From positions 496,001 through 560,000 of the forward strand of contig JAFLBI010000001.1 in assembly GCA_017303835.1 (NCBI GenBank): a stretch of DNA of 64,000 nt. The letters are read 5' to 3'. Positions 49,701-51,649 of this stretch are shown here, in pieces; within the stretch, counting starts at the first letter, position 1; every line of letters begins with the position of its first letter. The position numbers and the translations under genes are program-made. Below the pieces are notes generated by a model. It was not told where the DNA came from. It did not search any database and saw only the letters and a list, made by a program, of their open reading frames with translations. Origin of the DNA: Chitinophagales bacterium (GTDB lineage: Bacteria; Bacteroidota; Bacteroidia; Chitinophagales; Chitinophagaceae).

Positions 49701-51528
49701 TATCACCAAGAATGTTGAAGCGTGGGTCTGGCTTTGATAAATCAACTTCTACAATACTGGTAAAGTCGAAATTTGGATCATCAATCTTTAATTCGCCATT
49801 AAAATATTTCTTTTGAAAAGTACCATTGGTAGTGATATTGGAATAGGTGTATCCATTAAATTCTAAAGAGTTGAAATTGCCATCAATGCTGGTGCGAAGC
49901 TTGTCCAGCATAAAACTGCTGCCGTTGATCTTTCCATTGAAGTCGATAATGCCTAATTGCGGAACGGCAACAAATTTTCCTAGGTTGAATTTTTTGGTAT
50001 TCAAGCTGCCCGTATAAACAGGTTCTCCTTTCGCAGGAAGTTTGAGACTAAGATTGGCGCTTAAGCTACCGAGTTGCGTACTGAGCAATCCATTTGTAGT
50101 AAAGTCGGAAATCGTTCCCTTGAAATTGCCACGAAATATCACATTGCCCAAAGCTGCCAAATCTGGGTTGCTTAGTTTTTTTAAATCAGGTACAATAACA
50201 GTGAGGTCTCTTTGGTTAGTTTGTACTGTACCATTATTAAAAGTGATTAGTGTTTTATTGATATCGGGAAGGCCTTTCATCAACAGTTGTCCGTTGATGG
50301 TGCTACTGCCTGCGCGTAAAGCCAGCTGATCAACTGAAAAATCTTCCACAGTGCCCAGGAACTTGCCGCTGACATTTGCGCGCTTATTCCAGTTTTTGAC
50401 TTCAGGCGCAAAAAAAGCAATATCATCGCTATGTACATCGGCATTGATGAAGCGAGCTTCCATAGTAACTTTTGCGATGTAATCATTGAAGTCTTTATTG
50501 AAGTCCTGATACTTCATCGCATAATAGTTACCCAGTCTGCTTTTATTCGTTTGCAGGTCAAGATTGGCAAACTCCATAATTTGAGGAGTAAGCCTGAACT
50601 TGGTTTTCAGCTTCCTTAATTCAAAGCCACTTTTTTCTTTAGCACTGAGCGTGATGTCTGCGCGTATGGTATCCTGCTGGAAACTGAAATTTTTGAAAGT
50701 AGCGTTCAACATGGAAATACGCAAGTGTTCACCATCAAAGCCCTTGTCAGCAGCTTCCAGATTAGCATCTTCAATAAAGTAGCCATTCTTGAGGCTGATT
50801 TTTTTTGCCTGCACATAAATTCCGGCATCATTAAAATATAATCCTTCGTTCTTTTTCTTCTTTCTTCTTAGCGAGTCTGGGCGTAGACCGTCAAAATCTG
50901 CCAGACTAAATCCTGGTCTGTCAAGCATCACTTCATCCAGTACAAAAATGCCTTTGTTGAAATCAACAGATTCCATGTCGGCCAAAAGACCCATGACTTT
51001 TAGTTGCATGCGCTGGCCAACCCAGAGATCATTTTGTAAGAAGCGTACATTTTTCAGGTCAATTTTCTTCAGGTCTAGTTGCAGGCCTTTTTGTTTGGAT
51101 GGAGTGGGCTTTGGCTTGCTGGTATCGCTGCTGCTAAAATGATCTTCAATAAATGCGTAGTTCCAGACGGAGTCTTTACGTTGTAATTTGATAACTGCAT
51201 CTTCTAATCCAACAAACTTGATGGTTGCTTCATCTTTTAGAAAGAACCAGTCGGTAATGCGCAGCCTAAAATGCCCGGCATAAAGCAGGGTGTCTTTTTG
51301 TAGGTCACGAATCATGATGCCTTGCAAATCGGCACGGTTAAAGAGCGAAAAAGCCACTTTTTTAATACTGACTTCTGTTTTAAGCTCTTTGGCTAGTTTA
51401 TTGGTAGCGATACCAACGAGCCAATTCTGAACAGGTGTTGTTTGTAGCGCCAGAAATATCAGCAGTATCAGGCTGATAAGAATAAAAATGATGCGTCTGC
51501 TTATTTTCAGAAAACGGTTCAGGATCCC
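46747..51528 (-). CDS. tamB: Translocation and assembly module protein TamB (no in-frame ATG)
   Basis: A protein of about 1590 residues with a C-terminal TamB (DUF490) domain (last 350 residues; e.g. VGKSLLNDNVIVTFGNDFD) and a long beta-helical AsmA-like middle. It should span the periplasm and work with a BamA/TamA-type partner in moving lipids or proteins to the outer membrane. The 5' end is odd. The only canonical in-frame start is the GTG at 51355-51357, but coding continues upstream of it through a clear membrane anchor (RRIIFILISLILLIFLALQ, about 51440-51500) to an in-frame stop at 51550-51552. I therefore set the start at the ATC at 51528 (ATC CTG AAC CGT), which would give a normal-looking N-terminus, as a near-cognate or mutated start. 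A one-base slip in the C4 run at 51536-51539 could instead join a TTG at 51551-51553. Confidence 0.85.
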   Translation of the reverse strand, partial: GILNRFLKISRRIIFILISLILLIFLALQTTPVQNWLVGIATNKLAKELKTEVSIKKVAFSLFNRADLQGIMIRDLQKDTLLYAGHFRLRITDWFFLKDEATIKFVGLEDAVIKLQRKDSVWNYAFIEDHFSSSDTSKPKPTPSKQKGLQLDLKKIDLKNVRFLQNDLWVGQRMQLKVMGLLADMESVDFNKGIFVLDEVMLDRPGFSLADFDGLRPDSLRRKKKKNEGLYFNDAGIYVQAKKISLKNGYFIEDANLEAADKGFDGEHLRISMLNATFKNFSFQQDTIRADITLSAKEKSGFELRKLKTKFRLTPQIMEFANLDLQTNKSRLGNYYAMKYQDFNKDFNDYIAKVTMEARFINADVHSDDIAFFAPEVKNWNKRANVSGKFLGTVEDFSVDQLALRAGSSTINGQLLMKGLPDINKTLITFNNGTVQTNQRDLTVIVPDLKKLSNPDLAALGNVIFRGNFKGTISDFTTNGLLSTQLGSLSANLSLKLPAKGEPVYTGSLNTKKFNLGKFVAVPQLGIIDFNGKINGSSFMLDKLRTSIDGNFNSLEFNGYTYSNITTNGTFQKKYFNGELKIDDPNFDFTSIVEVDLSKPDPRFNILGDIANADFQQLKFTNDKFGLSGLLDVNFTGNDIDQFLGTAKILNANLTYEGEKLAFDSASLQSIYEQGKRFLVLRSNEFSVIVTGEQYKILDLPNSLQAFFHNYFPSLIPRPAKKPASQNFIVAIKTGVFEKYAPIIDKKLSGLNYLNIVGAVNTSDTGSFYLLGDIPVVKYDQYALYNASINGSGNYKSLNLKIDIKEAQIGDSLTIPQASILLNSANDKSNIHIKTSGINALNEADLFGDVYTLEDGFRLHFNPSSFVLNEKKWKIEKDGELVVRKNFVDAKNVKFTQGFQEISVETEEEDGGNTNNLVMKLNKVVLGDITQLFLKDPRLEGETSGDIRLGDFFGDFTADAQLKAEQFRFNDDSLGLVNVQAFYSSKSGEIKWNIQSPNEGYSFNSKGSYNTKDSITPLNTTIDLYNSKIDLVDLFLSDLFTDIKGCASGQLQIKGNPEKPDLLGKISLRNAGLLVNYTQVYYTIDSAEIKFEEDGINIGEIEIKDKYLNKGLVKGKLYEKGFSNMTFDFDMSTEKLLLIDTKLKDNENFYGRAIGKATMNLKGPESAAKMTLVAEANDSSHIYIPNSYSRESGDADFIVFKEYGTEMTAGDSSSGFNLSVDLDIIANNKVQIDVIIDDLTGDVIKATGNGRLRIKAGSTEPLSMKGRYTIEKGSYNFNFQSIFTKPFLLSGDGNNYIEWNGDPFLADLHIDARYIAENINLGELIGNQNYSFSDKMRGARTDVIVVAELRDKLMQPSIQFRLDFPQGSVARTDPSFQQFINRIERDEAEILKQVSYLIVFGGFAPQGGSNIPGGQTLIASTGINSISSLLTKEVNKAVSNLLYKITGDKSWRFDLNTSVYSSGSLINNVQATSSLDRTRVNFKVGKSLLNDNVIVTFGNDFDFSLGNSSAIANGQVQWLPDFNVEFVLSRDKKLRAIVFSKNSMGVNGNNFGRTNRQGISISYRKDFEKIFGRKEEDEDAGTPAKTDTAASKK

Positions 51529-51649
51529 GGCTTTAGGGGTTAAAAATACTCAATCGGTTTGCTTAAGGCAAATTCAATACCAAAGATGCTTTTCCCACAG
51601 TAAAATCAGCCGGCTTACACGTTAAACAGCGAAATTTTAACAGCCCGGG

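Follow-up and report, generated by a model that had tools for sequence, protein, structure and literature searches.

A conserved CTG codon as the very probable start of tamB in a member of the Chitinophagaceae

The tamB locus

The stretch of DNA analysed here (the window) comprises 64,000 nucleotides of a Chitinophagales bacterium of the family Chitinophagaceae and carries tamB on the minus strand (Table 1). The gene product is TamB by its match to PF04357 in the C-terminal part (E 4e-36; 125.5 bits against a cut-off of 22.4), and the tamB stretch has a single match in its own genome. As to the Bacteroidota trait that tamB does not share an operon with tamL, four neighbouring proteins (DUF1572, gamma-glutamyltranspeptidase, PMT, and SIMPL) were scanned, and none of them was named TamL-like. 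From the TGA that closes it upstream, the tamB frame reads VFLTPKAGI-L-NRFLKISRRIIFILISLILLIFLALQTTPVQNW, and its first canonical codon is a GTG past the anchor. The original prediction that this frame runs from the TGA to the GTG for 64 codons without ATG, GTG, or TTG, with an anchor helix inside, was confirmed on the minus strand. Of the 46 longest non-overlapping ORFs that span 120 codons or more from stop to stop in the window, none of the 45 apart from tamB has more than 28 codons from the upstream stop to the first canonical codon. When residues are numbered from the CTG, the 19-residue hydropathy mean is highest at residues 11–29 (2.71), whereas windows starting at residues 56–300, from the GTG onward, reach at most 0.86. 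The N-terminal inner-membrane anchor that serves as a criterion for TamB is predicted from this hydropathy.

Table 1. Features around the 5′ end of tamB, in positions of the window
Feature	Positions	Strand	Basis or remark
tamB coding sequence if read from CTG, 1591 aa	46747..51522	-	translation; PF04357 in C-terminal part
GTG, first canonical in-frame codon, past anchor; rejected as start	51355..51357	-	
Membrane anchor helix (predicted), residues 11–29 from CTG	51436..51492	-	Kyte-Doolittle 19-residue mean 2.71
ATA, codon 7, conserved at synonymous site	51502..51504	-	98/101 CTG loci
CTG, proposed start codon	51520..51522	-	homologous CTG in 101/121 family loci; kept in nearest relative
ATC, other candidate start, rejected	51523..51525	-	AGC in nearest relative
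Predicted 5′ leader, ~13–14 nt	51523..51536	-	from transcription start 4–5 nt beyond -7 element, as in F. johnsoniae
C4 run suspected of indel	51536..51539	-	identical in nearest relative
TATTTTTA, predicted -7 promoter element	51541..51548	-	box position conserved; element TAHHTTTG (PMC6847099)
In-frame TGA closing tamB frame upstream	51550..51552	-	
TTTG, possible -33 element	51569..51572	-	sequence and spacing

The start codon in the nearest relative and in the family

A near-cognate start at ATC or CTG had been predicted at 51523–51528, which reads GGGATC and is three bases off the true positions of these codons; the proposal itself found support for CTG and none for ATC in the nearest relative. 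The nearest relative (L003, about 90% protein identity) has AGC for the window's ATC, while the CTG, the C4 run, and the -7 box are unchanged, and only one base differs between the two sequences from the -7 box to the CTG. Because this relative has no ATC there yet keeps the CTG, the start is most readily placed at CTG and not at ATC, and no base seems to be missing since the C4 run is the same. Another locus, L032, is identical to L003 at the start and may come from the same genome.

Comparison of the relatives' N-termini, proposed as a check along with the original prediction, spoke for CTG: in 121 distinct Chitinophagaceae loci (126 fetched, of which the duplicates L002, L032, L046, L060, and L131 were dropped), the homologous codon is CTG in 101, TTG in 13, ATG in four, GTG in two, and ACG in one (L136, on a contig without an upstream stop). 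This codon was located with a profile built without residue 1. Twenty-four loci, most of them encoding an additional membrane segment or having a displaced start, were assigned by eye (CTG 12, TTG 8, ATG 3, GTG 1), so the canonical starts among these 24 are partly there by choice; the 97 loci left to the profile have CTG 89, TTG 5, and ATG, GTG, and ACG once each. Unedited, the profile got to the start in 106 of the 121 loci (CTG 90, TTG 5, ATG 1, GTG 1, and nine others including one CTA and one TTA). The CTA (L008) was reassigned to a GTG one codon upstream and the TTA (L036) to a TTG two codons upstream, and one of the 90 CTG codons (L007) is a chance match at a second membrane segment. Representatives sharing less than 75% identity (92 loci) gave CTG 73, TTG 12, ATG 4, GTG 2, and ACG 1.

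At the start column, CTG accounts for 101 of the 114 Leu codons as against 31% in codons 2–60 (p 3e-37, uncorrected for kinship), where TTG makes up 16%; an ordinary Leu would use other codons about half the time. A tree of the 121 loci, from which the first eight codons were excluded, requires 13 changes between CTG and the rest, compared with a mean of 18.8 for shuffled labels. No canonical in-frame codon occurs back to the stop in 77 of the 101 CTG loci; the gap from stop to CTG is at most three codons in 31 loci, and the stop abuts the CTG in two (L015 and L150). The other 24 CTG loci have a canonical in-frame codon upstream, at most three codons away in 10, and could start there, which weakens the case for CTG in those loci. 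Named isolates with the CTG include Chitinophaga oryziterrae (L049), Niastella yeongjuensis (L053), and Niabella ginsengisoli (L061).

Codons 2–6 look translated, because codon 3 in the 101 CTG loci is Lys in 56 and Arg in 35, the latter encoded by every one of the six Arg codons, and codon 4 is mostly hydrophobic. The base at +4 is A in 97 of these loci, a feature often seen where bacterial coding sequences begin (PMC5850271).

An additional hydrophobic segment precedes the usual anchor in 17 tamB loci (L007, L011, L048, L063, L068, L070, L073, L079, L080, L082, L087, L090, L118, L119, L122, L128, and L143), of which 12 nevertheless have CTG at the start, each of them together with ATA at codon 7.

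Promoter and leader

In 80 of the 101 loci, a -7 box of the Bacteroidota type ends 15–22 nt upstream of the CTG, against a mean of 1.8 and a maximum of 6 in shuffled sequences. In Flavobacterium johnsoniae, transcription begins 4–5 nt beyond the -7 box and the leader has a mean length of 33 nt (PMC6847099). With the box so close to the CTG, the tamB leader should be very short.

The ATA at codon 7

Codon 7 is ATA in 98 of the 101 CTG loci, whereas ATA makes up 26% of the Ile codons at positions 11–60 of the same loci and 15% in the genes of the window. It is also ATA in 21 of 24 loci of other families with ATT or ATC at the homologous codon (the exceptions are L103, L111, and L182). Where a canonical start is present, ATA occurs in 12 of 19 family loci (at codon 7 or 8), and it occurs in 19 of the 42 remaining loci of the class; the difference from the rare-start loci gives Fisher p values of 8e-5 in the family and 7e-4 in the class, both uncorrected for kinship. 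A CTG start does not account for this conserved ATA, which may be a second start, a pause at a rare codon, or an mRNA site. General richness in A was rejected as the reason, as AAA is used for Lys in 51% and 59% at codons 2 and 3 against a background of 74%, though in 93% at codon 6. A hairpin at the start was also rejected, because the region is less structured than its base-shuffled copies (mean folding energy -5.8 versus -7.3 kcal/mol), and pairing is among the weakest in the AAAATA stretch.

Other families, the rest of the order, and controls

Outside the family, 66 loci of the class were compared (26 best matches and 40 chosen from the match list). ATT (11) or ATC (13) stands at the homologous codon, with no ATG, GTG, or TTG back to the stop, in 24 of them, which represent 17 of the 33 other families sampled. 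These 24 were picked by eye from the table, L103 and L192 after a register shift; clear cases are L197 (TGA GCC ATT), L209, L196, L106, and L098. At this codon, AUU or AUC seems to serve as the start in other families of the class. T precedes the codon in 21 of the 24 loci and A follows it in all 24. The bases at -1 and +4 can pair with the loop of the initiator tRNA (extended pairing), and the T before and A after ATT or ATC would fit such pairing. The remaining class loci offer ATG, GTG, or TTG, in some cases at the homologous codon itself (ATG in L093, GTG in L105, and TTG in L207). Of 21 loci from the remaining families of the order, 20 had a profile match, and inspection by eye showed in all 20 an ATG, GTG, or TTG ahead of the membrane segment or where it begins.

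Upstream of tamB in L104, L108, and L110, the frame reads like the antisense of the N-terminus of a gene that we take to be tsaD, which seems to lie divergent from and very close to tamB there.

A general quirk of these genomes was rejected with infC as a control that took in loci of the family and the order: a canonical in-frame codon precedes the conserved core in 30 of 30 loci, and it is ATG in this genome. In nine infC loci from other families of the order (L219, L220, L223, L224, L227, L240, L241, L244, and L246), TTG is the only such codon, with neither ATG nor GTG before the core. A variant initiator tRNA was likewise discarded as the cause, the 29 best-matching loci from relatives (L280–L308) and the genome's own L263 all having the CAU anticodon and the GGG/CCC stem. 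The own genome has two initiator-like tRNA-Met(CAU) genes, the usual L263 (C1:1308737–1308808) and an odd L272 (C2:415292–415366), which has an A1.A72 mismatch and U29-A41 and lies amid small ORFs; the odd copy was seen only in this genome, the 29 relatives' loci being of the usual kind.

Alternative readings

Of the readings that compete with the CTG, initiation at the AUA of codon 7, either as the true start or as a second start beside CTG, is unlikely, if less so than the others. The protein would be six residues shorter and retain its anchor, and the reading draws on the near-constancy of ATA in the CTG and ATT/ATC loci, its lower frequency beside canonical starts, and a leader that would measure about 32 nt, close to the average in F. 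johnsoniae (PMC6847099). As a sole start, however, AUA accounts neither for the constraint on codon 1 nor for the coding character of codons 2–6, and the base after it has no preference for A (T 48, A 23), unlike the base that follows the CTG. The codon is also never ATG in the 171 tabulated loci, an argument of little weight, given that a weak start may be the one favoured.

The other readings are far less probable. An error in sequencing or assembly that dropped or added one base near the C4 run had been suspected because a one-base shift would fuse the TTG at 51551–51553 to the anchor; the run and this TTG do lie where the original prediction put them. Such an error is nevertheless highly improbable, as the C4 run is identical in the nearest relative, a canonical codon is likewise absent from 77 of the 121 family loci, some of them from isolates, and the TTG sits right by the -7 box, ahead of the point at which transcription is predicted to begin. 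A start in another frame followed by a frameshift was rejected as well, ATG, GTG, or TTG occurring in any frame at -20 to -1 in 33 of the 101 CTG loci against 38 expected from shuffles. The ATC next to the CTG resembles the likely ATT and ATC starts of other families in the class, but with AGC in its place in the nearest relative and a codon that varies among the other family loci compared, it is a most implausible start. Equally little can be said for a TamB without an anchor, translated from the GTG at 51357 or beyond: this GTG is the first canonical codon and is what an ORF finder restricted to ATG, GTG, and TTG chooses, yet starting there would lose the basic stretch and anchor that the family loci conserve. 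The worry raised earlier that the anchor is lost was judged unlikely, given support for a near-cognate start and none for a base error.

Proposed explanation and its meaning

Judged by conservation, tamB very probably begins at the CTG. We have high confidence in the fuller explanation, in which tamB has a promoter of its own immediately upstream and is translated from this CTG, probably at a low rate, the rare start being kept by selection. The promoter directly upstream would drive tamB, and initiation at the CTG would give a protein of 1591 residues with a short basic stretch (M-NRFLKISRR) followed by the membrane anchor. Because the initiator fMet-tRNA would be inefficient on CUG and the leader would have only about 13–14 nt, TamB output is probably low and throttled. 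Many relatives keep CTG or another rare start, which suggests selection, not sequencing error, and such selection would hold the rare start across Chitinophagaceae. The long persistence of a weak start suggests that TamB has to be produced slowly, or at a rate adjustable through the fidelity of initiation. More tentatively, and with rather less than even confidence, much of the class may share a two-part signal, a weak start (CUG, AUU, or AUC) followed at a fixed distance by AUA as codon 7, which would keep an essential envelope protein low and possibly sensitive to IF3; the start would drift among weak codons, the weakness itself being selected. Against CTG, neither the wild-type nor the M1 initiator tRNA initiates efficiently on CUG in E. 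coli (PMC11497404), and a CUG upstream of Caulobacter dnaA bound the 30S subunit in vitro and was unused in vivo (PMC8443254).

Bacteria very rarely conserve a CUG start. One reconstruction has 2 of 61,358 ancestral AUG starts turned into CUG (PMC5622118), and a survey cited in PMC9845219 lists 20 ORFs with a CUG start, or 0.024%, in 69 model genomes. CUG in one family and AUU or AUC in others, at an apparently essential outer-membrane gene, suggests selection for weak initiation and offers a clean test system. In practice, gene finders restricted to ATG, GTG, and TTG would cut off the TamB anchor, which matters for tagging and depletion. A literature search, mostly outside subscription papers and preprints, found no report of a rare tamB start.

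Comparison with known systems

The same gene has been studied in F. johnsoniae (Fjoh_4592) and Capnocytophaga canimorsus, where TamB is anchored in the inner membrane; tamB is monocistronic, it could be deleted in neither species and is thus apparently essential, and its depletion harmed C. canimorsus (PMC12045153). A TamB depletion strain of F. johnsoniae was unobtainable for reasons that the authors left unexplained, and the accessible text of that report contains no statement on the tamB start codon of either species (PMC12045153); that a misplaced start lies behind the failed strain is only a guess. Chloroplast genes are alike in keeping non-AUG starts over long evolution, although psbC, the example studied, starts with GUG and not with CUG, the start proposed for tamB (PMC9845219).

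What marks the conserved-rare-start genes of the infC and pcnB type, a codon other than AUG, GUG, or UUG kept at the start among relatives, is found in tamB as well. Both E. coli genes, infC (encoding IF3) and pcnB, start at AUU, as Butler and Brombach reportedly described in 1987. The likeness lies in a conserved gene that retains a rare start codon, and the difference in the codon, which for tamB is CTG in one family and ATT or ATC in others. Since TamB is not a translation factor, no self-regulatory loop is evident for it, unlike infC, and infC itself, unlike tamB, has a canonical in-frame codon in all loci compared in this family and order. The phenomenon itself belongs with infC and pcnB; what is new, as far as could be seen, lies in the gene, in a CTG maintained across an entire family, in ATT or ATC elsewhere, and in the linked ATA codon.
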